A stretch of DNA of 33,447 nucleotides from Candidatus Saccharimonadota bacterium (GTDB taxonomy: Bacteria; Patescibacteriota; Saccharimonadia; Saccharimonadales; Saccharimonadaceae). The stretch lies in NCBI GenBank assembly GCA_017514765.1, contig JAFWIU010000003.1:1-33447 (forward strand), written 5' to 3'. The notes beneath the pieces are model-generated. The model searched no databases. It had not been told where the DNA came from and saw only the letters and a program-made list of their open reading frames with translations. The first letter of the stretch is position 1. Each line of letters starts with the position of its first letter. Positions 59 to 25,139 of this stretch are shown in pieces. A program made the translations under genes and the position numbers.

Positions 59-1432
59 ATGGATTCGTCACAGGATAATAATTTTGGTAATACGATGCCA
101 AGTGGGGGTGGTGGTGGTGTTGGTGCGCCAGCGAATGATGAAGTGTCGATGGGTATTGGTGTAGGAGCTGGTGGTGTGTCGGTGAATCCTGTGCAATCTA
201 GTCAGCCGGTGAGTTCGATGAATCTTGCGCAACCAATGACGCCGGTAGGACAAACTAATCCTGTGATGCCAGCGAATCCAGTACAGCCTGTGGCATTAGT
301 GAATCCGACGCAGTCTACGGTTTCTGCGAACCCTATGCAACCTATAATATCGGATAATACACAACCTGCAGTGCCGATGAGTTCTGCACAACCTGCAGCG
401 CCAGTGAATCTTGCGCAACCTACAATTCCAGTAGGGCAAGCTCAACCCGCGATGTCAGTCAACCCGATGCAATCTACGATGCCAATGGAACAAGCTAATC
501 CTATTACATCGAACGGATTTGAGCAGCAGATGTCACCCATGGGGATGAATATAAATATGATGAATCCGAGTATGCCGATGAGTTCGGATACTGGTGATAT
601 TATATTAAATGTTGACGATAAGAAGAGGTTTAAGAGGGGGTGGATTGTTGGGATTGTGTTAGGGTTAATGGTGGTTGCGGGGGTAGTGGCGGTTATAATA
701 ATAAAACCTTGGGAGTTAAACGGTAGTATTGTTAATGATACTGTTAAAGATAAGCTTAATATTTACGCAAACTATTTTCTGTTTGGTGAATTGAGTAATA
801 AAAATATAGATTGGCAGATTGTCGATGATGATGGATTTGAGAGTTTTTTTGAGAAAAATATGAATCATGAACCAGATGATAGTAGTATTAGCCGTTCGGC
901 AATGATAAATGGATTATATGAATACTATAATGATTTTTATGAAGCTTATATTAATGAAGGGTTTAAGTCTTCGTGGGTAGTGAATAATTACAGGAATAAC
1001 GTCGCTTTGTTGACAACCTATTATGACGTCGGTATTACTACGAGGACTGAGCTATTAAATGAGTACAGCAAGGATCGTAGTGTGGCAAATGATTTAATAA
1101 ACAGTGTTTCGGAAAAGTATACTGATTTTGATGGCATGTATAATTCTGATATCAGTGAATTGGTTAAGGATTGGGGTAAGAATCAGTTGCAATCTATAGA
1201 AGAATACGATGCAATGGGTTGTCTGTCGAACGGTCAGATTAATTATGGTTGTGCTGCAGAACAGCAGAATGAAACTATTGACACATTATATCAAAATGCT
1301 TCAATTATTTTGAATAGGATTAATGCTATTGCCAATGACTGTAAGAAGAGCCTATATCTAGACTTGCATGTAACTTATGATTATGTGTTGAAAGAAAGCA
1401 GTAAAAAAGGAGAAAATGAAAATGAGTACTAA
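59..1432 (+). CDS. Pro/Gln-rich single-pass membrane protein, possibly part of a type IV secretion-like locus
   Basis: 457 residues, family not recognised. Residues 1-55 are Gly/Ser-rich. Residues 57-147 form about ten degenerate 9-residue repeats of the type AQPxxPVNx, a flexible low-complexity region. A basic stretch (KKRFKRG, 188-194) precedes one membrane helix at about 195-216. The remaining ~240 residues are a soluble, acidic, Asn/Tyr-rich domain, presumably outside if the basic residues stay in the cytoplasm. It has a leaderless-type promoter. It overlaps the following VirB6/TrbL-like gene by 11-17 bp, so the two are probably one operon and may act together in the envelope. No catalytic motif is visible. 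Confidence 0.8.
   Translation: MDSSQDNNFGNTMPSGGGGGVGAPANDEVSMGIGVGAGGVSVNPVQSSQPVSSMNLAQPMTPVGQTNPVMPANPVQPVALVNPTQSTVSANPMQPIISDNTQPAVPMSSAQPAAPVNLAQPTIPVGQAQPAMSVNPMQSTMPMEQANPITSNGFEQQMSPMGMNINMMNPSMPMSSDTGDIILNVDDKKRFKRGWIVGIVLGLMVVAGVVAVIIIKPWELNGSIVNDTVKDKLNIYANYFLFGELSNKNIDWQIVDDDGFESFFEKNMNHEPDDSSISRSAMINGLYEYYNDFYEAYINEGFKSSWVVNNYRNNVALLTTYYDVGITTRTELLNEYSKDRSVANDLINSVSEKYTDFDGMYNSDISELVKDWGKNQLQSIEEYDAMGCLSNGQINYGCAAEQQNETIDTLYQNASIILNRINAIANDCKKSLYLDLHVTYDYVLKESSKKGENENEY
227..499 (+). repeat. In-gene 27-bp (9-residue) degenerate tandem repeats
   Basis: Successive units read AQPMTPVGQ, TNPVMPANP, VQPVALVNP, TQSTVSANP, MQPIISDN, TQPAVPMSS, AQPAAPVNL, AQPTIPVGQ, AQPAMSVNP, MQSTMPMEQ. 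One unit is 8 residues long. They form a Pro/Gln-rich cytoplasmic or linker segment before the membrane helix. Confidence 0.85.
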
Positions 1433-4400
1433 ACTGTATAAAAGGGTAGTTTTGTGTGCTATTCTATTTGTCGGGTTATTATCAAGTTGCAGTTTGGGGG
1501 CTTATGCGGCTCAGATTAGTATTCAAAAAAGTATTGTTAATAAATCTATTTTTCAAGGAATATATAAATGTTATGTCGGCGTTGGCAATGGTGGTTACAT
1601 AAAAAAAAGCCTTGATTTAAAAGATTATTCAAGTATTCACTCTTTGCTATCTGATAAAGATTCAGGCGGAAATTATGTCCCATTAATAACTGGGTCTAGT
1701 GAGGGAACCACCATGGGGATATTCTGGGGGTCGGAACAAACTAGGTATAATGTTGTAGACAATGGACTGTCTTGTTATAAGTTGTTTACTGGATATAATG
1801 GTTTGGGTGGGCAGTCTGTTTCATTGCTTAAAGCTTTAGGTCATCCTGACCCTGATCAGTCAGAAACTGATAATGTTGTTGATTTTATGAAAGGGATGGG
1901 ATATAGCATATTTGAACTGAGCGATAATGGAAAAACTTGCTATTCATTACAGTTTAAAGAAAAAGGCAAAAGTAGCGATATGTATACAAATAAGGTTTGT
2001 GTGGATTCTAGTGGCAAATTTTCTGTGGAGGGGAGATCTGATAACAATAATCTTACGTTTTATATTGATGGTAACAAGGTTTGTGTTCGACATTGGTATC
2101 AGAAGGATGGCGTTAATGATAATGCAATCGAAAAATGTCTGAAAGATAGCGAATCTTTTGACCAGGATGCGTTATTGAAGATTGCTGTGGAAGCATGCGG
2201 TAATAGTACTACATGCACAACGAGTGGCGGCCAGTTTGAAGATGATGGTTATTCCACTTTAATATTATCAACAGCGGTTGGCTCTGTAAAAGAACAGGAT
2301 AGTTTAGATAAATATAAGGCTGAGTTTATTAACAACTCAGCATCTGATGCGGCTATACAGGCAATTAATTATTTATCTGGCAATAATTTGACGGTTGATT
2401 CATTGAAATATAGTCCTTCGGAAAAAAGGATGTTATATCAGGCATATTTGGAATCGTATTATAATGTTGAAGTTGGTTGTGGGGCCGATGAGATTGATGC
2501 TGCATGGACTGGCAGGATAAGATGGTTTGATAAAAATAGTGGCTCGATGAAGGATTGTCATTATCGCATTGGTGATAATGTAAAACACGAAAATGATCCA
2601 GTTAATGGAATAAAGGATGATGGTTTTTTGGGTTATAATTCAATTGATGATTTACAGACTTTAATTGATGAAATTGGAAAATTACCTCAGGATTACAGTG
2701 AGGATGAGCTTAAAGAAATGGGTGAAATAGCTGAAGGGGAGTTGGAGAAGGAGGATGATGAAGAGAACGTTTGCTATGCCAACTCTGGGTCGCTAGGATG
2801 GATTATTTGTCCAATTATTGAGGGTATTAGTCGAGTTGGTACAGCAGCGTGGGAATTTGTCGAGTCAAACTTTTTGCAGATAAGATCTGAAGAATTGTTT
2901 GGTAGTAATAGTGGAGTAAAAGCGGTTTGGGATAATTTTCGTGACATAGCCAATACGGCATTTATTATACTGCTTATGGTGGTAATCTTCTCACAACTAA
3001 CTGGTGTTGGCATAGATAATTATGGTATCAAGAAGATTCTACCAAAGTTAATAATAGTTGCAATCCTGGTTAATCTGAGCTACTTGCTTTGTGAACTAGC
3101 AGTGGAGCTTAGTAACATACTAGGATATGGGTTAAATGAGATGTTTTCAAATTGGGCTGGTGAAATTCCGGAGATAACTGGTCTAGAGACTACAGGATCG
3201 ACTGTTGGATCGAATCTGGCAGTACTTGCATTGGGCGCTGGTGGGTTGGCATTATTCGGAGTGCTGAATCCGGTAGGAGCTTTGACTGTGGGCGGAGTGC
3301 TACTGGGAGTAGGTCTAGCAGTGTTGGGGGTTGTGATTTCTATTGTGTTTTCGATACTGTTTCTATTCCTTATTTTACTTATCAGAAATGCGGGAGTGGT
3401 AATCTTAATTGCGGTGGCGCCGGTCGCGATTGTGTGTAATCTGTTGCCGAATACTGAGAAAATTTACAAAAAGTGGTTTGAGCTGCTTAAGGCGCTACTG
3501 GTAGTATACCCGATTTGTGGAGCGATGATAGGAGCTGGTAAATTGGCAGGGAATATGCTTGCTTCGATTGATAGTCCTGGTATGGCAATATCTGGTATGA
3601 TTGTGAGTGTGTTACCTTTCTTCCTAATACCGACACTACTAAAACAATCCTTGAAGTTGATGGGAAATGTGGGTGCTATGTTGACATCGGCTGGACAGAG
3701 AGGAAGTCGTAGGCTGTCTTCGGGTGTGCGTGGTAAGATTACGGGTTCGGAAGGTGTTAAAGATTGGTCGCAATACCAGAAGGCACAGTCTGATAAGAGA
3801 AGAGCAAATAGAGTAATGAAACAACTTAGTGGGCGAACTGATCTTTCGGCGAGGCAGCAAGATAAATTGAGAAAAGCACAAGATGTGATGTTAGCACATC
3901 GTAAAGAGGAAAAGGAGAATAGACAAAGAGCTGAGAGTGGCTATTATTCGGCGATGTCTAATAAACAGGATTTAGCGTTTGAAACTGAGACTAATGCAAT
4001 GTCGAGATTAAATAATCCTACTGTGCTTGCAGCTGAACGGCAAGCAATGGTTGATGAGGCAAGGATGAAGGAGGCAAAAGCACGTGTAGCGTTGATGACG
4101 AAAAAAACAAGTGGACAGGGTATGGAGCAGTTGATGATGAAGTGGAATACTGCATTCGACAGTGGTAATATGGATGATTTGGTTGCATTAACGACTTTGA
4201 TTAACCAAAAATATGGATCATCTGGGGCAAGTAAAATGGCGGATAGCTTATATACAAAACAGGGTGTGGCAAATAATGCAAACTATCAAACTTCGCTTGG
4301 TGCTTTGCAACAAGCTATGAGTGAAAATAGTAGTCTTGCTGGTAATTTGAAAACTAAAGCTCCAGATGCGTTTCAGATGATAGGCGATGGTGGGATGAGA

Positions 4401-4931
4401 TTTGATCGAAATACGGGTAATATGGTTTATGAGGATATGAATTACTTTACTAAGAACAACCAGACGGCTACAAAGGTCTCAGACTGGGCTAATGTTTCTG
4501 GCTCAGCATTACAGCGCGGTTTAGATAGTGGTGCTATAGATAATAATCAATTAAATGAGTTGTTAACAAGCGAAGATCCTACAATCAAATCAGGAATAAG
4601 GAGTGAAAAAGGAAAACGTGAGGCTTTGGAGGCAGCAAGCTACAATAGAGAGCATGGCTCATCTTTGGATAATTCTATGGCTTCGACGAAGTATCAAGAG
4701 GAACAGAGAACACATAGAGCAAATGAGCAGGCAGCGCAGGATGTTGCTAGACAAAATGCTATGCAGACCACAATAAAAGAAGCTATTAAAGAGGCCCTTC
4801 CGGCTAGTCAGAATTCTAATACTCCAACAATTGTTCCGGGAAATGCTAGCAATCTCGATGATGCGTTAAGGCGGTATAATGATTCGCGTGCTGGAACGAG
4901 AAATATGAATGATAGACACATAGGTAAGTAG
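1416..4931 (+). CDS. VirB6/TrbL-like polytopic membrane protein with large N- and C-terminal extensions
   Basis: 1171 residues. ATG at 1422 has better spacing (9 nt) to AAGGAG at 1407-1412 than ATG at 1416 (3 nt). The N-terminus is a signal peptide with a possible lipobox LSSC at residues 22-25 and also an AYA-A site, so lipid anchoring is uncertain. Residues ~35-480 are a Cys-containing extracytoplasmic region. Residues ~505-750 hold several membrane helices, including the stretch KLIIVAILVNLSYLLCELAV and RNAGVVILIAVAPVAIV. The layout resembles the VirB6/TrbL channel proteins of type IV secretion, and similar long versions occur in CPR genomes (family knowledge). Residues ~750-1171 are a charged, Gln/Ala-rich, partly helical tail, probably cytoplasmic. 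The specific role (DNA transfer, protein export or pilus-like attachment) cannot be read from sequence. Confidence 0.7.
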   Translation: MKMSTKLYKRVVLCAILFVGLLSSCSLGAYAAQISIQKSIVNKSIFQGIYKCYVGVGNGGYIKKSLDLKDYSSIHSLLSDKDSGGNYVPLITGSSEGTTMGIFWGSEQTRYNVVDNGLSCYKLFTGYNGLGGQSVSLLKALGHPDPDQSETDNVVDFMKGMGYSIFELSDNGKTCYSLQFKEKGKSSDMYTNKVCVDSSGKFSVEGRSDNNNLTFYIDGNKVCVRHWYQKDGVNDNAIEKCLKDSESFDQDALLKIAVEACGNSTTCTTSGGQFEDDGYSTLILSTAVGSVKEQDSLDKYKAEFINNSASDAAIQAINYLSGNNLTVDSLKYSPSEKRMLYQAYLESYYNVEVGCGADEIDAAWTGRIRWFDKNSGSMKDCHYRIGDNVKHENDPVNGIKDDGFLGYNSIDDLQTLIDEIGKLPQDYSEDELKEMGEIAEGELEKEDDEENVCYANSGSLGWIICPIIEGISRVGTAAWEFVESNFLQIRSEELFGSNSGVKAVWDNFRDIANTAFIILLMVVIFSQLTGVGIDNYGIKKILPKLIIVAILVNLSYLLCELAVELSNILGYGLNEMFSNWAGEIPEITGLETTGSTVGSNLAVLALGAGGLALFGVLNPVGALTVGGVLLGVGLAVLGVVISIVFSILFLFLILLIRNAGVVILIAVAPVAIVCNLLPNTEKIYKKWFELLKALLVVYPICGAMIGAGKLAGNMLASIDSPGMAISGMIVSVLPFFLIPTLLKQSLKLMGNVGAMLTSAGQRGSRRLSSGVRGKITGSEGVKDWSQYQKAQSDKRRANRVMKQLSGRTDLSARQQDKLRKAQDVMLAHRKEEKENRQRAESGYYSAMSNKQDLAFETETNAMSRLNNPTVLAAERQAMVDEARMKEAKARVALMTKKTSGQGMEQLMMKWNTAFDSGNMDDLVALTTLINQKYGSSGASKMADSLYTKQGVANNANYQTSLGALQQAMSENSSLAGNLKTKAPDAFQMIGDGGMRFDRNTGNMVYEDMNYFTKNNQTATKVSDWANVSGSALQRGLDSGAIDNNQLNELLTSEDPTIKSGIRSEKGKREALEAASYNREHGSSLDNSMASTKYQEEQRTHRANEQAAQDVARQNAMQTTIKEAIKEALPASQNSNTPTIVPGNASNLDDALRRYNDSRAGTRNMNDRHIGK

Positions 4932-6887: not shown

Positions 6888-9857
6888 ATGAAAAAGGCGA
6901 TACTGTGGGTATTGGTCTTAGCTTTAGTGACATCTGCGGCGGGTTTGATGAGTCGTAGCGTGGTGGCTTTTTCGATCCCGAATAATTTACTAAAGGAATA
7001 TTCGGTGAACGGAATATACTTTATGGATCCGTGTGGAAATGGTGCGAATAATAATCGAGGTAATGGTTGTGTGGGGACTTTGCCAGGCAGTGATAATGCA
7101 GAGATGACTTGGAATGCGATTGTGGAAGCGAATGTAGATGGAGTATCAAATAATCCAGCGGCGATTGCGGGGATAATGGGGAATTTGATGCAGGAGACGG
7201 GGTTTGATCCGTTTGAAGTGGCGCGAGGATATTATGGCATTCATATGACTAAGGAGCAGGCATTTATTGATGTGATAAATAATGCAGGGCTTGGCCAATA
7301 CTGGGGACATGGGAAGGAGGCACCGAAGGAAGCTGTGAAACAGGCAATAGAATTAGAGCTAGATTATATCATGAAGACGAACGAGAGGTTCCTTGGTACT
7401 GGAAGTTGGGTGAATAAAGGATTTATGAGTTATGTAAATGATAGTGAGATGCAGCAGGGTACGGCAGAAGATTTTTCGGATTTGTTCTTGGTGACGGTGG
7501 AGGATGCTTGGTGGAATAAAGGTCCACAAAGTCAATGGAAGGGCAATAACATCATTTTGAACGAGACCGCTAAGAAAGTGAGTGAAATGATCTATGGGTA
7601 TGTCAGGTGGTATCAGGAAGCAGAAGTACGGCGTGATAATGCGAAGGAGTTTTATGAAAAGTATGGTTCGTCTGGGGTGTGTAATCTAGGGGGAGCGTTT
7701 AATGGAACTGAAGTGACGTGGCAAGATTTGGAGCCTCTTTCGGCAAATGATAGATTAAAACTGTTGGTAGAACGTTATGGCGAATATACGATGCAATTAC
7801 AGAAGTATTATGGGATACCTTGGGAAATGCCATTTGCGGTGATGGTGTATGAGTCACAGGTGGGGGCAGATAAAAATAGCGTTTCGTATAAAGCACAGCA
7901 AGCTGGTTATTATAATATGATGGGGTTGACTAATTCGGTAGGTGGGTTTGATGACAAATATCGTTCGGAGGCAGCTGGATGTTATGCCGGTAAGGATACG
8001 AATTGCCATTCGGGATATGAATCGATTTCGAAGATGTTACTTGGGTATACGATTTATCATGGGCGAAGTGGATTTGGTGGTGATAAATCATATGATGGTG
8101 GGTTAAAGATACTGACGCCGGATAGTAATTATGATAATAACTTGGGTATAGCAATACTAAGATTAATGGAGACGTACTGTAAGGGTGGGTGTTATAGAAA
8201 CGAAATATTGGGAATGATTCGTGAGGGTGGTAATGACCATGGATGGTCGGGCTTATTAGAGGTTGTACGAGAAAAGGGATGGATGACTTCGGCGGAGTTG
8301 GCCAGGTCTTGGAATATTCAGCCAGGTGGAATAGCAACGCAACAGTGGGGGTGGGGTGATATTAGAGAAGAAATATGGAATGCTTATGGCGAAGCAGGAT
8401 TACCTGGTAATGCATCAGCTACAACTGGAGCGACTTCGATTACTGGTGGAACTGCAAGCACTGGAACTATGAGTGGCTCACTAGTGGGAAATGCGGTACT
8501 GCATAAACCGCAAAATGAGTGGTTGGAGAATGTGGGGTTAGAAGGATACATTAAGAATGAAGTATCGCTTAGCGGTGGTCCTGGTGGTCATATTGATACT
8601 AGTGCGGTGCAGAATGGGCAATATACGGAATTTGCAAGTGATGCGGGAGCGGGGTCTGGATTACCTGGATTTATAGTGCTTCATTTAACATCGGCGGATA
8701 ATTTTGGTTCTAGGAATTGGACGAATTACTGTGGAAAAGGGTTTTATTGCCCACCGCACTTTACGATTGATGTAAAGAAGAGAGAAGTATTTCAGCATTT
8801 TCCGTTGACACATCCTTCGGCGGCATTGTCTAAACGTGGAGCGATGCCAGCGGATCAGTATGGTATTCAGATTGAGATTGTGGGACATGGTGGAGACCCA
8901 ACGGGTGGAAACTATGCGACTTGCATGGCGGGTGCTTGCAGTAGTGAGTATGATTATAAGAATTTTACGGATGAGGATTATGATTATATTGCTAGTTTAT
9001 TAATTGCGATTAGTAAAGAGACTGGGATTCCATTAACTAGTTCCGTGGAATGGGGTAAGACTTCGCATGACACGAAGGCTTTGAAGATTGAGAGCAATGA
9101 GGATTTGAAGAACTATATTGGTGTGCTGGGGCATACGCACGTAAATGGGAAATGGGATCCACTTGATATATGGTATTATATTGAGCCAGCACTAGCAAGG
9201 ATGGGATATGCGTATAGTACAAGTGCGTTTGGGAATTCGGTTAATTGTGGAAGACAGGGCGCTTCGTTGCTGCATGGACATTGTTTTGATATTCCAAGTG
9301 GCGATGGTGGTTGTACGGAGGATGGTTTTACGTGGTTTGGACAAAATGGCGATTCGTGGGGTAGCATGCCATATGGTGGGAGTGGTTGTACTACCATGAA
9401 ATCTGCCGGTTGTGGTCCTTCGGCGATGGCAATGATTATTACGGCTTTGACAGGGCAGTTGGTGTTGCCGCCCGAGATAGCAGAAAAAGCGGTGGAGGTT
9501 GGTGCCAGAAGGTGTAACAACGGTACTGATGTGGTTACATTGGCGACTAAGGTGGCCCCGATGTATGGGTTACAGGCTCAGTGGGTACCGAATTCTGAAG
9601 TGACGGAACAGAACGTGAATAGGTGGTTTGACGAAGGAAAGATGGCGATTTTCTCAGTTGGATTTTATGAGACTGAGTTTGGACAGTTGACTTCTAGTGG
9701 TGGGCACGTGATGGGGCTAAGAGGGAGGGCAAGTGATGGAAAGTGGTATACTTTTGATAGTTCGAATCGTAGTATTCCAAAAAATGATAGGCATTATAAG
9801 CCTAGTGATATTATTAATGCGTTACATAATGATAATTTCTGTTTGATCTATAAATAG
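6888..9857 (+). CDS. Secreted multi-domain peptidoglycan hydrolase: phage-tail-lysozyme-like, second lysozyme/glucosaminidase-like, Amidase_2-like and C39-like peptidase domains
   Basis: 989 residues with a signal peptide (about 1-28). Domain 1 (~75-245) resembles phage tail lysozymes: NNPAAIAGIMGNLMQETGFDP, with Glu103 the likely acid. Domain 2 (~285-480) is lysozyme/glucosaminidase-like around VMVYESQVGA (Glu322). Residues ~503-535 are a Gly/Ser/Thr linker. Domain 3 (~565-765) fits N-acetylmuramoyl-L-alanine amidase type 2: His599 in VLHLTS, His624 in PPHFTI, and GHTHVNGKWDP (749-758) supply zinc-ligand-like residues. Domain 4 (~815-985) fits a C39-like cysteine peptidase: Gln819, Cys842 in AGCGPSAM, His940 in GGHVMGL, Asp957. 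Together these could cut glycan strands, the lactyl-amide bond and peptides. Whether the target is the cell's own wall, a secretion-channel opening or a host wall is inference. The next gene follows within 10 bp. Confidence 0.85.
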   Translation: MKKAILWVLVLALVTSAAGLMSRSVVAFSIPNNLLKEYSVNGIYFMDPCGNGANNNRGNGCVGTLPGSDNAEMTWNAIVEANVDGVSNNPAAIAGIMGNLMQETGFDPFEVARGYYGIHMTKEQAFIDVINNAGLGQYWGHGKEAPKEAVKQAIELELDYIMKTNERFLGTGSWVNKGFMSYVNDSEMQQGTAEDFSDLFLVTVEDAWWNKGPQSQWKGNNIILNETAKKVSEMIYGYVRWYQEAEVRRDNAKEFYEKYGSSGVCNLGGAFNGTEVTWQDLEPLSANDRLKLLVERYGEYTMQLQKYYGIPWEMPFAVMVYESQVGADKNSVSYKAQQAGYYNMMGLTNSVGGFDDKYRSEAAGCYAGKDTNCHSGYESISKMLLGYTIYHGRSGFGGDKSYDGGLKILTPDSNYDNNLGIAILRLMETYCKGGCYRNEILGMIREGGNDHGWSGLLEVVREKGWMTSAELARSWNIQPGGIATQQWGWGDIREEIWNAYGEAGLPGNASATTGATSITGGTASTGTMSGSLVGNAVLHKPQNEWLENVGLEGYIKNEVSLSGGPGGHIDTSAVQNGQYTEFASDAGAGSGLPGFIVLHLTSADNFGSRNWTNYCGKGFYCPPHFTIDVKKREVFQHFPLTHPSAALSKRGAMPADQYGIQIEIVGHGGDPTGGNYATCMAGACSSEYDYKNFTDEDYDYIASLLIAISKETGIPLTSSVEWGKTSHDTKALKIESNEDLKNYIGVLGHTHVNGKWDPLDIWYYIEPALARMGYAYSTSAFGNSVNCGRQGASLLHGHCFDIPSGDGGCTEDGFTWFGQNGDSWGSMPYGGSGCTTMKSAGCGPSAMAMIITALTGQLVLPPEIAEKAVEVGARRCNNGTDVVTLATKVAPMYGLQAQWVPNSEVTEQNVNRWFDEGKMAIFSVGFYETEFGQLTSSGGHVMGLRGRASDGKWYTFDSSNRSIPKNDRHYKPSDIINALHNDNFCLIYK

Positions 9858-9866
9858 GGGATGAGA

Positions 9867-10469
9867 ATGGCGGTGAATGTTCACAATAAAGAAAAACTGA
9901 AAGAATTTGGCGAATGGCTGGTGTCACCATTTGGCATAATTGTGATTGCAGCTGTAGCGATTGGTTTGATTTTGTTGGTCGTTTCAATTAATTTGGTTTA
10001 TAAGACAATAAGGGATAGTGATGCGGAATGGTCATATGAGGAATATGATCCGGCTTCGGATACGACATTTGAGATGGTGGCACCGACAAATGATGAATCT
10101 GATGAGGCATTATATGTCGGGTTCGAGCTATTATTGCAAAATGGTGTCACAAGAGACCAATTTGCTTTGTTTAAGGATGCAGTGAGTGGATATGCTGAAA
10201 GTAAAAATATGGAGCTGACTAGGGTGAGTTATCTAAAAGATAGCTATAAACTGGAGGCGTCGTATGTGTTTGATTTTAAGATTGTACTCAACATAGATCA
10301 GGAGACGTTGAAAGTACGAATAGATAGTTCAGTAGGATGGAAGGATATCATGGGGGCAAAGGTGGAATTATGGAATGAGATAAGAGAGAAGTTGTATGAA
10401 ATAGAGATTACAGAAGATAATATTTGCGAGTATTTCAGGGGATATGAATGTGGGGACGACGGGGATTAA
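9867..10469 (+). CDS. Small membrane-anchored protein of unknown function
   Basis: 200 residues from ATG 9867. ATG 9861 is in frame, but the GGGG at 9857-9860 is better placed for 9867. A short basic N-terminus is followed by one membrane helix at about residues 26-48 (FGIIVIAAVAIGLILLVVSI). The rest is an acidic soluble domain with alternating strand-like segments and no recognised motif. It starts just after the hydrolase stop and is probably co-transcribed. It could be a partner or anchor of the hydrolase, but nothing in the sequence proves this. Confidence 0.75.
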   Translation: MAVNVHNKEKLKEFGEWLVSPFGIIVIAAVAIGLILLVVSINLVYKTIRDSDAEWSYEEYDPASDTTFEMVAPTNDESDEALYVGFELLLQNGVTRDQFALFKDAVSGYAESKNMELTRVSYLKDSYKLEASYVFDFKIVLNIDQETLKVRIDSSVGWKDIMGAKVELWNEIREKLYEIEITEDNICEYFRGYECGDDGD

Positions 10470-14244: not shown

Positions 14245-17200
14245 ATGTTGAAGAGAAAAAACAAAAATTTGTTTGCGTGTTTTGGTGCTTTATTGGTTGC
14301 GCTTTTGATTGTTGTTTTTAAAAATGATTGTGCGTTTGCTTTCTCTCTTAACATTACTACTTCTGGTGACATTGTCACTAATGTTACACCAGTTGGTGAC
14401 GGTGGTGTTGGTACTAGCATAGTAATGGATGAGGTAAATATTACAAGTAACTGTCGTTCGGGTTACACTTTTACAATTACCGGTCCTAGTGATAACAATC
14501 TTTATCTTGATGGCGATGTGACTAATAATGTATCGGGTACTTATTTTACTCCAGTTGATGGTAATTCAGCCTTAAATGGTGCGGGAAACATTAATAAATG
14601 GGGGTATAGTTTAACCGCTAATACTGATACGGGAGTATTTATGCCGTTGTCGAGTACTGGGACGACGCTTAAGACTCCCAGCCAAACTGCAAGTCCGAAT
14701 GCTGATATTGATGTGGTTATTCCAATCTATTATGGTGCAGCCGTAAACAATAATTTGGAACCGGGGAGTTATGCTTTTGCTAATCAAGGAACAATTACTT
14801 ATGCGGTTACTATGGATCCATCATGTACTGTATATAGTGTCCAATATCAGGGTAATGGTGCTGATAATCCTGATGGAATGGGTACTACTAACGAATCTAC
14901 GGGGGAAAAGAGTGTAAGACAAATTAATGTATCGGAAGGAACTACCATTACGTTATTGGCTTCTAATTTTAAAAAACATGGATATGGTTTTCTTGGTTGG
15001 AGTATTGATGAGAATGCTTATTTGCATTTCGTTGATAATGATAATACTAATGATCCAATTATTTATGGACCAAATGAGGCTGTGACGATTACTGCAGACG
15101 TTATTGCAAGTGCTACAGCGAGAAATCAGATTAATATGTATGCTGTATGGTTGCCAGCCTTAAAGTCAGATTTGGCTAATCCTAATAGTACGCCGGTTTA
15201 TTTTCAAGATTGGGATAATCCGAATACTTTGTTGCCTCATGATGGTTGTAGTACATTAACTGCTACCGCATTCGATGACACTATGGTGGATGAGAGGGAT
15301 AAAACCATTGTTACTAAAGATAGCGTAGTAGCCTTAACTGATAAGAGGGATAATGAGGTTTATGCTGTTGCGAAACTTGTTGATGGTAAATGTTGGATGA
15401 TTGAGAACTTACGATTAAATGCTGAGTATACTATGGGTCAGAATCAAAATGATTCTACATTAACAAATCGAGACTTATCGCAAGGATATGGTGGCACTAC
15501 TGGTACATATGGCAACTTTGTGGGATTAGCGGAATCAGAGGATGCGAATTTTGCTAATGTGACTACTGCGAATTCTGTTTACAAGTCCTTTTCTACTCCA
15601 TCGGTGGACACTTATGATCCAATAAATCAAACGCTTGAGGACATTGGTATTATTGATCAACCAAGTCGTCGTATGCCACGTTATAATAATAGCAATACTG
15701 CTAGTTCGGTAACTAATCCGGTATACGTAGAAGACTATTCTGTTTCCCCCAATCCATCTGTAAGTGGAAATTATAAAGCTCTTTCTCTTGTATCATATGG
15801 AAATTATTATTCTTGGGCTGCTGCTATGGGTAATACAAACTATTATAGAGAGGCATCGGCTTCCGAAAGTGCAGGGACTTCTATTTGTCCAGCTGGGTGG
15901 ACCCTTCCAACTGGTGGTAATGATGCGACTAAGGATTTTATTGGACTTTCGCAAGCATATGGTGGTAGTACGCAATCTGGTGGAGTGTTGTCTAATCGTT
16001 TTCGTAGATTTCCAAATAATCTTGTCTATTCTGGTCATTATAATGATTCGACCATTGGATATAGGGGAGCATCTGCTTCTATTTGGACTAGGACGACAGG
16101 TCCTTATGTTGTCTATTATTTCAATCTCAGCAGTTCGGGAGTGAGCTCAAGTGCGAATAACGATCATAAGTTTCGTGGTTATGCTATAAGATGTAATTCG
16201 AACGATTCGAACGTAGAAATTACTCTGAATTCCAACAATAGTTCTAATAGTGTTTCTAGAGTTTATGGTGTCGCTGGTGAGTCTATCGTCCTTCCGCAGT
16301 CATCTATTGCAGAATCTGGTTATGGTTTCAAAAACTGGAATACTGTCCTGGATGGTTCTGGTACTGCCTATACCACTAATTATACTATACCGGCTGATTC
16401 TGTTGGTGAAACATTGTATGCGCAGTGGAGTTCGCAGTATACCATTACTTATATAAATAATTGTCAGAGTTATGCTGGTGCGAATGCTAGCTGTACTCAA
16501 TCTGCTTCTGGTAGTATCTTTTTGCAAAAGATTAATCTTGATACTTCTGGCTCTGGCTCTGGTACACTCAAGGCTTATAATGCGTGGACAACAATGTCTG
16601 GATGGAAGATAGCTGGTTGGAATACTAGCGCGGATGGTACGGGTACTGAATATAGAGTTGGGAGTAATTACTCTGTAGTAAACCAGAATCCTGGAGATGG
16701 TGTTACATTGTATGCTCATTGGGTGCCGTTATATAGTGTTCAATATGACGGTAATGGTGCCGATAATCCTGATGGTATGGGTACCATTGATGCAAATACT
16801 GGATTAAAAAGCGTGCGGCATTATAATGTGGGGGAGGGAGATACTTTTGATTTATTTGCTTCTAATTTTAGAAGAACAGGTTATGGTTTCGTGGGGTGGA
16901 GTATGGACGCTGATGCTTGGGATAAGTTTATTGATAATGACGCTACGAATGATGTAAGGATTTGGGGACCGAATGAGAAAATTACTGCTCCGGCATATAA
17001 TAATACTGCTATTACTACTCTTTATGCGGTTTGGGCACCAGCAGAAAAGGATGCTAGCGATAATCCGGTTTATCTTCAAAACTGGTCTGGATGCTCTTCC
17101 ATGACGGCAACTTTATACGACAGTAATACTGGTGGATTTGATGTGTCGAAAGATAGTATTACTGTTCTAACCGATCAGCGTGATGGTAATATCTACGCCG

Positions 17201-18003
17201 TTGCGAAACTTGTAGATGGTAATTGTTGGATGATGGAGAATTTGCGATTAGATGATTCAGTGGAGCTTTCTACTACTGATACGAATATACCTTTGAACAA
17301 TAGCTCCCTGCCAATTACTAATATTTATAATGCGGATGATACTCTTGCTACAAAGTCGAATTACCTTTCGCCATCGTCTTCTGTAACATTTGATGCATCT
17401 GAAGCACCATATGGTTGGTGTTCCAGTCAAGATGCACCTTGCGGTGATCAGTCCCGCCTTAATACCACTAATACAGTGGTAAATAGTATTCCGAGTAAAA
17501 CTCAAAATCTCATTTCGAATAGTACACATGCTGATTTTAATGATGCGATTTATGGTTACGGGAACTACTACAACTGGTATTCTGCTACGGCTGGGTATGG
17601 AATTTATAACAAAAATAGTGGAGTCACGGCTGGAGATATTTGTCCGATAGGTTGGCATTTGCCATATGGTAGCGGTGGTTCTGGTACGAACGGCGGTAAT
17701 ACCAGTGGTGGTTATTATTATTTGGCTAATTTGATGGCTGCTGCTAGCAGTAATGCAATTAATTCTAACAAATTCCGTAGTTTCCCCAATAATTATGTTT
17801 ATTCTGGTTCTTGGGGGAGTGGAGGTGCCACTAGTCGTGGGGGTTACACGTATTATTGGTCCGCATCTGCTAATAGTTCTAAAGGTCGTGCGTATGCTTT
17901 ACGCTTATATGCTTCTGGTGTCAATCCAGATGGTTCTATATCTATTACTAAAATCAGTGGTGATGCGGTGCGATGTGTGATTTCTGCTAATGTGGGTGCT
18001 TGA
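14245..18003 (+). CDS. Giant secreted protein with InlB-like B-repeats and two FISUMP domains
   Basis: 1252 residues. Signal peptide at ~1-32 (hydrophobic FGALLVALLIVVF, cut near AFA-F). Residues ~35-190 are a beta-rich N-terminal domain. B-repeat-like units (GYGFxGWS, LYAxW ends) lie at ~197-302, ~655-727, ~733-826 and ~830-930. FISUMP (Fibrobacter succinogenes major paralogous) domains lie at ~315-650 and ~942-1247, each with the signature VYAVAKLVDGxCWMxENLRL and a late ICPxGWxLP. The module B-repeat + FISUMP occurs twice, an internal duplication. No sortase motif or C-terminal membrane anchor is visible, so it may be released or held non-covalently. Its role is probably adhesion or surface display (inference). 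Confidence 0.85.
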   Translation: MLKRKNKNLFACFGALLVALLIVVFKNDCAFAFSLNITTSGDIVTNVTPVGDGGVGTSIVMDEVNITSNCRSGYTFTITGPSDNNLYLDGDVTNNVSGTYFTPVDGNSALNGAGNINKWGYSLTANTDTGVFMPLSSTGTTLKTPSQTASPNADIDVVIPIYYGAAVNNNLEPGSYAFANQGTITYAVTMDPSCTVYSVQYQGNGADNPDGMGTTNESTGEKSVRQINVSEGTTITLLASNFKKHGYGFLGWSIDENAYLHFVDNDNTNDPIIYGPNEAVTITADVIASATARNQINMYAVWLPALKSDLANPNSTPVYFQDWDNPNTLLPHDGCSTLTATAFDDTMVDERDKTIVTKDSVVALTDKRDNEVYAVAKLVDGKCWMIENLRLNAEYTMGQNQNDSTLTNRDLSQGYGGTTGTYGNFVGLAESEDANFANVTTANSVYKSFSTPSVDTYDPINQTLEDIGIIDQPSRRMPRYNNSNTASSVTNPVYVEDYSVSPNPSVSGNYKALSLVSYGNYYSWAAAMGNTNYYREASASESAGTSICPAGWTLPTGGNDATKDFIGLSQAYGGSTQSGGVLSNRFRRFPNNLVYSGHYNDSTIGYRGASASIWTRTTGPYVVYYFNLSSSGVSSSANNDHKFRGYAIRCNSNDSNVEITLNSNNSSNSVSRVYGVAGESIVLPQSSIAESGYGFKNWNTVLDGSGTAYTTNYTIPADSVGETLYAQWSSQYTITYINNCQSYAGANASCTQSASGSIFLQKINLDTSGSGSGTLKAYNAWTTMSGWKIAGWNTSADGTGTEYRVGSNYSVVNQNPGDGVTLYAHWVPLYSVQYDGNGADNPDGMGTIDANTGLKSVRHYNVGEGDTFDLFASNFRRTGYGFVGWSMDADAWDKFIDNDATNDVRIWGPNEKITAPAYNNTAITTLYAVWAPAEKDASDNPVYLQNWSGCSSMTATLYDSNTGGFDVSKDSITVLTDQRDGNIYAVAKLVDGNCWMMENLRLDDSVELSTTDTNIPLNNSSLPITNIYNADDTLATKSNYLSPSSSVTFDASEAPYGWCSSQDAPCGDQSRLNTTNTVVNSIPSKTQNLISNSTHADFNDAIYGYGNYYNWYSATAGYGIYNKNSGVTAGDICPIGWHLPYGSGGSGTNGGNTSGGYYYLANLMAAASSNAINSNKFRSFPNNYVYSGSWGSGGATSRGGYTYYWSASANSSKGRAYALRLYASGVNPDGSISITKISGDAVRCVISANVGA
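14833..15150 (+). repeat. First copy of the duplicated InlB-like B-repeat
   Basis: Encodes YSVQY.GNGADNPDGMG, SNF..HGYGFLGWS and IYGPNEAVT, closely matched by the copy at 16729-17034. Each is followed by a FISUMP domain, so the duplicated unit is about 1.3 kb long. Confidence 0.8.
16729..17034 (+). repeat. Second copy of the duplicated InlB-like B-repeat
   Basis: Encodes YSVQYDGNGADNPDGMG, SNFRRTGYGFVGWS and IWGPNEKIT. The paralogy with 14833-15150 is obvious by eye; divergence in between suggests an old duplication. Confidence 0.8.
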
Positions 18004-22886: not shown

Positions 22887-25139
22887 ATGATGCGGAAAGC
22901 TGGTTTTAGATTATCAAGAGTCAGAAATGTTCTATCCCTGTGTGGAATAGTACTCATAGTTGGTGTGGTGGCGTTTAACGCCGTTATGAATTCAATGGGT
23001 AATGATGATGCTAATGCGTCGAATGGTGGCAGTGCGTATGACGCTAGGCCGGTGCAAATGGAAAAGTTAGATTATGTATCCGTTTTTACTGGTTCTTTAG
23101 TGGATAATACGGTTGATTCGTCGCAGAGCCTTGCTATCACTGATAAGTATTTCGTAGTGGTGCAAGCGAATGGTTCACAAGAGAATGCTGGTTGGATTGT
23201 CGCAACTAGTCTTACTAGCCCAAATTCAACGCCGGCTTGGAAGGTATCATATAATATTGGTCATGGAAATGGTGCGACTTGGACTAATAATTGGACAGAT
23301 GAGATCGTGATTACTAATGGCTCTACGAGATTCTTTTTCGATGCTGATGATGGTACTTTTAATGGTTCGAGGACTGTGAGCACTACCGCATGGGGAATTG
23401 CCTATGACGATGGTATTGCTGGGGGTGGATATGTTGAACTGAACGGTAAAACTGGGCGTTTTGTTGGTATGAACTTTGAATCAATAGGTTCTGATACTTT
23501 TGATACTACGATGCCATTAGTGGCACAGGATGTGGCATATTATAATGGGGATATCTATGTGATAGGGTGGGGGGGTTGTAATTACTTGGAGCATGATCAA
23601 AATAGTTCGGCTGAAGCTGTGGCAATATGTAGAAATGAATTTGGGGAGGGATCTGATGCTATTTATCAGTTTGACGGAAGTGGTAATTATGTAAAGGGGT
23701 ATTATCTTGAAGCTAATGCTGGAGAACTTGAAAGTATGGCATTCGATGCTAGTGGCACGCCATATTTGTTATTTAATGGGGGGAGTCAGTATACGATAAG
23801 TAGAGTTAATACTACACTCGGTGGGGGTGGATCGAACCAAAAGGAGTCTCAGAAAATTACATTTTCGAATAACCCTAATAATATAGTAAATGGTAGTGGT
23901 GGTAATTATACTGTGGTGGCGGGAGCTAGTTGCAGCGGAGCGACGATTATCTATAGTTCTAATAATTCAAATGTTGCGGTGATCGATGCGTTTAGTGGTG
24001 CTTTGACGATTAAAGGAGTCGGTACTACTAGGATTACCGCTACTGCTGCTGAAACTACAAATTGTTATGCTGGTTCAAACTATTATGATTTGACAGTTCT
24101 CGATTCGAGTAATCCTGGCACTGACCCGAGTGATCCTGGAGGTGGGTCTGGTAAACAGAAACAGCATATTACTTTTGAGAAGCAGCCAAAGAATATAACT
24201 TATGGTAGTACTGGTAATCATGCCGTGCTGGCGGTTACTGATGGTGATGGGGAGATTAAATATTCTTCTAGTGTCTCTAGTGTTGCATCAATTGATGAGT
24301 CGAATGGTGCGTTAACGATTAATGGGGTCGGCAGTACAATTATTACGGTACGTGCGACAGAAACTGAAAATTATAAACAAGCTATTAGTGCTTATACTTT
24401 GACGGTTACTGGATCAAGTGACCCTGGTACTGATCCGAGCGACCCCGGTACTGATCCGAGCGACCCCGGTACTGATCCGAGCGACCCTGGTACTGATCCG
24501 AGCGACCCTGGTACTGATCCGAGCGACCCAGGTGACAATCCAAATCAGAAATTGTCACAGGCTATTGCTTTTACAGTTGCACCTTATAAGATAACTTATG
24601 GTAGTGATGAGAACTATACTGTGACAGCAACTACCACTGGTAATGGAGCTATTACTTATACTTCTAGTAATTCTAGTGTTGCAACAATTAATAGGACTAC
24701 TGGTGTTTTAACGATTAAGGGAGTTGGTACTACCACGATTACTGCTACTGCTGCTGAGACTGCAACTCACAATAAGAGTTCTAGAAGTTATACTTTGACA
24801 GTGGTTGCTCAAAGTGATCCTGATGATGACCCAAGTGACCCTAGTGACGACCCGAGTGATCCTGGTGATGACCCAAGCGATCCTGGATATAATTCAGATT
24901 TACCTGATGATAATCCTAACCAATCTGGGGACAAGTCAGATTCGTCTAAAGATAGTCAAAATCAGACTGGAGGTAAGACTTCTGGGGGAGTAGTCGTTCC
25001 GAACACTGGAGAAAACATGAAGGATGGTGGTATGACGATGGATGTTATCATTGCGGTACCGGTATTATTGATTGCTGGCGTAGGATTTGGCCTCGTAGTA
25101 CTTAAAAGAGTGAAAATTGACCATAGAAAGTTTGATTAG
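22887..25139 (+). CDS. Ig-like repeat surface protein with a VPNTG sortase-type C-terminus
   Basis: 750 residues. N-terminal signal or anchor helix at ~15-36. Residues ~55-310 form a beta-rich domain with FFFDADDGTFNG and IYQFDGSGNYVKGYYLE, possibly a propeller. Three similar Ig-like (Big/cadherin-like) domains lie at ~320-405, ~425-507 and ~556-640, each with KITYG and GVLTIKGVGTTTITATAAET-type strands. They are joined by Asp/Pro-rich linkers, including five perfect DPGTDPS repeats (512-546). The C-terminus has VPNTGE (704-709), a membrane helix at ~718-740 and a basic tail, the layout of an LPXTG-type sorting signal with V in place of L. It is probably covalently attached or processed by a sortase encoded elsewhere; no sortase is in the window. 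Confidence 0.85.
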   Translation: MMRKAGFRLSRVRNVLSLCGIVLIVGVVAFNAVMNSMGNDDANASNGGSAYDARPVQMEKLDYVSVFTGSLVDNTVDSSQSLAITDKYFVVVQANGSQENAGWIVATSLTSPNSTPAWKVSYNIGHGNGATWTNNWTDEIVITNGSTRFFFDADDGTFNGSRTVSTTAWGIAYDDGIAGGGYVELNGKTGRFVGMNFESIGSDTFDTTMPLVAQDVAYYNGDIYVIGWGGCNYLEHDQNSSAEAVAICRNEFGEGSDAIYQFDGSGNYVKGYYLEANAGELESMAFDASGTPYLLFNGGSQYTISRVNTTLGGGGSNQKESQKITFSNNPNNIVNGSGGNYTVVAGASCSGATIIYSSNNSNVAVIDAFSGALTIKGVGTTRITATAAETTNCYAGSNYYDLTVLDSSNPGTDPSDPGGGSGKQKQHITFEKQPKNITYGSTGNHAVLAVTDGDGEIKYSSSVSSVASIDESNGALTINGVGSTIITVRATETENYKQAISAYTLTVTGSSDPGTDPSDPGTDPSDPGTDPSDPGTDPSDPGTDPSDPGDNPNQKLSQAIAFTVAPYKITYGSDENYTVTATTTGNGAITYTSSNSSVATINRTTGVLTIKGVGTTTITATAAETATHNKSSRSYTLTVVAQSDPDDDPSDPSDDPSDPGDDPSDPGYNSDLPDDNPNQSGDKSDSSKDSQNQTGGKTSGGVVVPNTGENMKDGGMTMDVIIAVPVLLIAGVGFGLVVLKRVKIDHRKFD
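24420..24524 (+). repeat. Five tandem 21-bp repeats (DPGTDPS linker)
   Basis: Five back-to-back units starting GACCCT/GACCCC and ending CCGAGC. They differ from each other only at the third base of the Pro codon. Near-identity at DNA level implies recent expansion or ongoing length variation. Confidence 0.95.

Follow-up and report, generated by a model that had tools for sequence, protein, structure and literature searches.

A predicted Sec-exported, four-module peptidoglycan hydrolase and its membrane partner: the most fused member of a variable, very probably T4SS-linked family of Saccharibacteria

The stretch of DNA analysed here (the window) comprises 33,447 nt and represents contig C2 of a 697-kb genome in 12 contigs, whose closest named relatives in a one-per-species collection are MAGs of Saccharibacteria, in several cases from the ruminant gut. 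An ORF on the forward strand (6888..9857) encodes a protein of 989 aa, in which a Sec-type signal peptide precedes four modules, i.e. a phage-tail-type lysozyme (D1), a GH73-like glucosaminidase (D2), an Amidase_2 domain (D3), and a papain-like C39 peptidase (D4), in this order. The signal peptide (aa ~1-28, 6888..6971, +; MKKAILWVLVLALVTSAAGLMSRSVVAFS) bears out the previous claim of an exported protein, and a hydrophobic N-terminus is shared by 53 of 57 family members. It is followed by a header motif (aa 36-47, 6993..7028, +) with the consensus [FY]xQNNIxFYxP, which occurs in 32 of 36 hydrolases versus 6 of 345 other ORFs at same-genus loci.

The upstream part of the window encodes a proline-rich TM protein (59..1432, +) and a VirB6-like protein, VirB6b (1416..4931, +), an accessory copy of the VirB6a of the virB4 cluster (core aa 442-757 versus VirB6a, 4e-51) with seven TM segments in its core. 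The hydrolase gene and the partner gene directly behind it come after VirB6b, with murB and folD intervening on the opposite strand. Two further exported proteins are encoded downstream. The large product of 14245-18003 contains Listeria-Bacteroides repeats and Fib_succ_major domains, and a homologue of its C-terminal part is present on contig C8 (L026 2-520). The product of 22887-25139 has an NTGE-type region at its C-terminus as well as Ig-like and tandem (SDPGTDP)n repeats, and is a candidate LPxTG-like surface protein.

The single-sequence Pfam matches to the hydrolase are weak and fall below the curated cut-offs, but they occur in the expected order. For D1 (aa 60-262, 7065..7673, +), PF18013 (Phage_lysozyme2) matches aa 70-258 with 5.5e-5 (score 23.8, cut-off 28.2). 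The family profile matches the phi29 gp13 lysozyme (3csr) with 1.1e-14, aligning E103 (7194-7196), the catalytic Glu, which lies within a GNxxxES motif and is invariant in the family alignment. For D2 (aa 275-500, 7710..8387, +), the match of PF01832 (Glucosaminidase) to aa 300-387 is marginal (0.021). The family profile matches SAOUHSC_02979 GH73 (5t1q) with 3.6e-9, FlgJ (5dn4) with 5.4e-9, and also 5dn5; both E322 (7851-7853) and the NLFGI-like N-x-x-G motif (N343..G346) are invariant in the family alignment.

PF01510 matches D3 (aa 582-789, 8631..9254, +) at aa 594-758 with 1.4e-5 and a score of 25.9 (cut-off 26; 26.5 for the second copy described below). The family profile matches XlyA (3hmb) with 1.9e-6, and a Foldseek search with D3 lists XlyA, PlyP100 and PlyG. 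D3 is 33% identical to a Brevibacterium phage endolysin, and H749, D757 and E663 align with its motifs GHQH...DP and QIEI. All three, as well as H599, are retained in five relatives and the phage endolysin, and H599, H749 and D757 are invariant across the aligned relatives. From this alignment, the zinc set should be H599/H749/D757, and E663 is likely to be the catalytic acid. H624 is conserved too, but presumably is not the ligand expected for this amidase family.

D4 (aa 808-989, 9309..9854, +) is the best-modelled module (AF2 pLDDT about 80-90). PF13529 (Peptidase_C39_2) matches aa 838-957 with 1.1e-3, and the model resembles the pseudomurein endoisopeptidase PeiR (8z4h; Z 15.9, 153 residues, rmsd 2.4), the C39-like 3erv (Z 13.5) and staphopain C (Z 12.9). 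C842 and H940 are invariant in the family alignment, and D957 is present in most sequences. Cas1-like matches to D4 were dismissed as noise.

The whole-protein structure prediction was good only for D4 and parts of D1 and D3, and the assignments of D1 and D2 therefore rest on profile matches; for D2, the model of which is poor (pLDDT ~45), conserved motifs complement the profiles. The central claim of the preliminary description, a four-module wall hydrolase, is borne out by the ORF, a 73%-identical copy in the same genome, the profiles of relatives, the matches to solved enzymes, and the D4 fold. Its catalytic residues could be confirmed as invariant (E103, E322, H599, D757, C842, H940) or nearly so (D957), with the exception that H749 replaces H624 as zinc ligand. 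Taken together, the protein is predicted with high confidence to be a peptidoglycan hydrolase.

The second, full-length copy (G000:C8:45029-48028) clears the C39 and amidase Pfam cut-offs and scores higher than the window protein for most modules. The nucleotide identity of the two copies is unevenly distributed. It reaches 95% over the linker between D2 and D3 (aa 481-540, 8328..8507, +) and 87% over aa 241-300, versus 58-78% for most catalytic stretches, and about a quarter of the residues of the catalytic domains differ. High nucleotide identity over linkers next to diverged catalytic domains is expected for recombination at linkers, and the D2/D3 linker is thus a likely recombination joint. 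The second hydrolase-partner pair (G000:C8:45029-48631; L026 12018-15635) lies between the gene for carbamate kinase and ornithine carbamoyltransferase/agmatine-deiminase-like genes, i.e. within an arginine deiminase type locus.

The partner gene (9861..10469, +) begins 4 bp past the hydrolase stop codon. It encodes a single-pass membrane protein of 202 aa (family PT) with one TM segment at aa ~25-43 and an ectodomain of ~150 aa, which is predicted from the N-terminal TM segment to face outward. A homologue also follows the second hydrolase copy. Among the 57 family hydrolases whose neighbouring gene could be read, 54 have a single-pass membrane gene directly downstream, compared with 9 of 167 other large genes (p 2e-38, an overstated value because the genomes are related). 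The preliminary description had overlooked both this near-obligate partner and the second hydrolase copy. The partner type varies with the C-terminus of the hydrolase: PT partners follow 11 of 13 hydrolases that end in C39 and none of six with an internal C39 (Fisher p 0.001, related genomes). These six mostly have CHAP-like C-terminal ends and an LG-type partner. Homology of the PT and LG families could not be established (hhalign probability 19%). In G025 (L027 4531-5711), the second PT partner gene is directly followed by an LG partner gene, an orphan LG beside a PT pair.

The AF2 model of the partner (mean pLDDT 80.7) shows an alpha+beta ectodomain, with a helix packed against an antiparallel sheet. 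Neither sequence nor fold comparison gave a significant match in the PDB. The best fold similarities (Z about 5) are a mixture of cystatin-like and NTF2-like folds, none of them significant, and both kinds are in the chance range (for the cystatin-like ones: stefin B, Z 4.8/4.3; latexin, 4.2; staphostatin A, 3.6). A VirB8-like protein would have an NTF2-like ectodomain behind a single TM segment, of which the partner has the TM segment. The missing match to VirB8 or cystatins counts against neither identity. The partner probably binds the hydrolase, and the odds that its role is restraint or immunity, as opposed to that of a subunit in assembly, fall slightly short of even.

The modules of the window protein are shuffled among dozens of exported hydrolases in other Saccharibacteria. 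Same-genus relatives contain them in other combinations, together with CHAP, NlpC/P60, VanY and GDSL-type domains. For example, in G025 a protein with GH73, amidase and C39 domains (1136 aa) adjoins one with lysozyme and C39 domains (855 aa), while in G021 GH73 and lysozyme plus C39 are separate genes within the virB4 operon. All four modules are united in one chain in three proteins only, the two copies described here and one in L128. The preliminary description had called the combination of activities in one protein unusual; the four-in-one fusion is indeed rare, but most hydrolases of the family combine several modules. Within this family of exported hydrolases, which extends across Saccharibacteria, the window protein shows the highest degree of fusion. 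A pattern-limited search for the D3-type amidase among 84,980 species returned nine loci, eight titled Saccharibacteria and one “uncultured bacterium”; among phages, matches came from endolysins of Brevibacterium phages and from four unclassified phages.

The content of the family is highly variable. Within the genus, the median identity is 87% for VirB4 (range 81-95%), but 38% for the lysozyme domain and 28% for the partner. In contrast to the window form, which is missing from most same-genus relatives, two housekeeping hydrolases, a PcsB-like CHAP protein encoded beside FtsX and a LysM-CHAP protein, were found in 40 of 40 relatives, indicating that the needs of the own wall are otherwise met. 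The family counts were drawn from related genomes and hence are not independent. Jointly, the hypervariability, the conserved housekeeping hydrolases and the putative linker recombination point to diversification toward changing targets; relaxed selection or differences in own-wall chemistry are possible alternative sources of the hypervariability.

Relatives also connect the family with a T4SS. Both virB4 and a PF18013 hydrolase were found in 20 relatives (window genome included); in 10 of them, the hydrolase gene follows virB4 on the same strand at a distance of at most 5 kb. The operon maps of relatives read VirB6 - PrgI - X - VirB4 - (large single-TM protein) - hydrolase - partner. The virB4 cluster of the window genome is located on contig C1 and runs directly into dnaJ, without a hydrolase-partner pair; G006 and G010 contain a pair in exactly this virB4-dnaJ slot. 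Two pairs are present in one virB4 operon in L117 and L036. In G025, two pairs lie directly upstream of a block in which a homologue of the proline-rich TM protein (L027 2870-3745) precedes VirB6b, as in the window. The link to secretion, which the preliminary description had drawn from one nearby VirB6-like gene, is therefore firmer than was apparent, and it is very likely that the window protein belongs to a T4SS-linked hydrolase family.

The large protein often encoded between VirB4 and the hydrolase has 830-1040 aa and mostly a single TM segment (L034 3579-6581, L110 9383-12256, L117 10251-12737, and others). It has no clear Pfam match, except for a VanY domain in L110, and is missing between virB4 and dnaJ of the window genome. 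Possibly it is an uncharacterised surface part of the T4SS. ATPase genes of 735-800 aa near some of the pairs were considered as T4SS coupling proteins and rejected, as they represent FtsK.

Epibiotic growth of Southlakia epibionticum (S. epibionticum) is reported to require lysozyme and peptidase genes that directly follow virB4 (PMC12102498); the text of the Cell 2023 Tn-seq paper does not mention hydrolases. By analogy with known systems, the window protein is best read as a VirB1/CwlT-like hydrolase whose architecture would be that of a polymorphic toxin, paired with a cognate protein in the membrane. Our overall reading, with a probability of about 0.5, is that of a T4SS-linked, Sec-exported four-module hydrolase that works where epibiont and host touch and is restrained by its partner. 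Against it stand the position of the pair in the window genome, which is not beside virB4, the location of the second copy amid arginine-catabolism genes, and the partner's no more than weak resemblance to cystatin-like inhibitors (top Z about 5).

In the main competing explanation, a VirB1-like hydrolase acts on the own wall and clears the way for building the T4SS or pili, with the partner as a VirB8/TraH/OrfG-like channel subunit that binds the hydrolase. We regard this as a serious possibility, although it is not the favoured one. The hydrolases of relatives adjoin virB4, PrgI and VirB6, and the size, TM position and alpha+beta ectodomain of the partner are compatible with such a subunit. 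In the Gram-positive T4SSs of pIP501, pCF10 and ICESt3, single-pass VirB8-like proteins bind the VirB1-like hydrolase directly (PMC11753425), and S. epibionticum lacks a recognised VirB8 (PMC12102498). However, a single VirB8 type would serve one channel, whereas each hydrolase has its own partner, even with two pairs per virB4 operon (L117, L036) or with the pair far off (C8). Moreover, the partner type tracks the peptidase type, and the partners have diverged far more (28%) than VirB4 (87%). The fold match of the partner to VirB8 is not convincing, which bears little on the question either way.

It is unlikely that only some of the modules cut, with D2 or D1 serving as a wall-binding domain. 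The poor D2 model and its marginal single-sequence Pfam match would fit this idea, but E103, E322 and their flanking motifs are invariant. An ordinary autolysin for growth, division or wall recycling of the epibiont itself is very improbable: autolysins commonly carry GH73 and amidase modules, but the window form is missing from most same-genus relatives, in contrast to the PcsB-like and LysM-CHAP proteins found in 40 of 40, and in many relatives the hypervariable hydrolases go with T4SS genes rather than with those for division. A resident-prophage lysin or captured phage lysis cassette is hardly credible, and a phage-tail device is not supported: D1 resembles phage tail lysozymes and D3 a phage endolysin, in keeping with the modular part of the earlier comparison with a phage-tail lysis device, but the neighbours are chromosomal (murB, folD, recA), the protein has a Sec-type signal peptide and the family-wide header, no tail genes or other phage structural or lysis genes were recognised among the window ORFs, and viral contigs contained neither a confirmed relative of the locus nor, like phages, the full architecture.

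In the preferred reading of a partner-restrained hydrolase at the epibiont-host contact, Sec would export the enzyme into the wall space between epibiont and host. D1 and D2 would cut the glycan strand, D3 would free the stem peptide, and D4 would cut peptides. Local removal of glycan, stem and cross-link could then loosen the wall at the contact site, mainly that of the host. The partner ectodomain may bind the C-terminal peptidase and hold or restrain the enzyme at the epibiont surface, so that the epibiont would be spared, to the presumed benefit of the T4SS. The host wall is somewhat favoured as the main target. The hosts of Saccharibacteria known so far are Actinobacteria (PMC11665869), and the resemblance of the amidase to endolysins of actinobacterial (Brevibacterium) phages is a host-side hint that we count for this reading.

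More tentatively, we propose a lineage-wide, T4SS-linked “polymorphic wall-hydrolase” system in Saccharibacteria, in which a common export header would be combined with modules swapped by recombination at linkers to fit the host wall and, to spare the epibiont, with a cognate membrane protein per C-terminal peptidase; the largest assembled form of this system would be the window protein. If true, this would provide a concrete, testable gene set for the host range and host killing of these parasites. The pairs are conserved in arrangement, hypervariable in content, and located beside secretion genes required for epibiotic growth, and are therefore candidates for host breach and host range, as well as for the cell-wall part still missing from the patescibacterial T4SS. 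This bears on the question of how Patescibacteria, among them Saccharibacteria, breach the wall of their hosts or tolerate it, and natural four-in-one lysins against Actinobacteria could serve as useful enzymes. The logic of the family is more interesting than the number of domains.

In the T4SS operon, the Saccharibacteria hydrolases take the position that belongs to VirB1/CwlT/TraG-type proteins in Gram-positive conjugation systems. Like CwlT of ICEBs1/Tn916, TraG of pIP501, PrgK of pCF10 and TcpG of pCW3, which are multi-domain glycan and peptide hydrolases of T4SS loci beside single-pass membrane proteins, members of the Saccharibacteria family adjoin virB4 and PrgI. They differ in that a chain may contain four modules, as here, that a family header follows the Sec signal, that the modules are hypervariable, that every hydrolase has a partner of its own, and that a genome can have several pairs, some of them away from virB4. 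The phi29 gp13 tail lysozyme and the Brevibacterium phage endolysins are homologous to the catalytic domains of D1 and D3, respectively, but here the domains are joined to GH73 and C39 in a cellular exported protein, with no phage. Xanthomonas lytic effector/immunity pairs such as XAC2609-XAC2610 (PMC10933484) likewise combine a peptidoglycan-cutting enzyme with a dedicated envelope protein in a T4SS context; their effectors carry a C-terminal T4SS signal, whereas the window protein carries a Sec signal, and a domain of the former kind was not found in it. With polymorphic toxin systems (PMC3482391), the family shares a common N-terminal part, swappable C-terminal catalytic domains, and an adjacent downstream gene that tracks the C-terminal domain (11/13 versus 0/6; 54/57). 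A known trafficking domain or repeats were not found in the hydrolase family, which differs further by wall hydrolases in series and a single-pass, membrane-anchored partner. The known kind to which the protein very probably belongs is that of T4SS-associated wall hydrolases, here with a polymorphic-toxin-like organisation.
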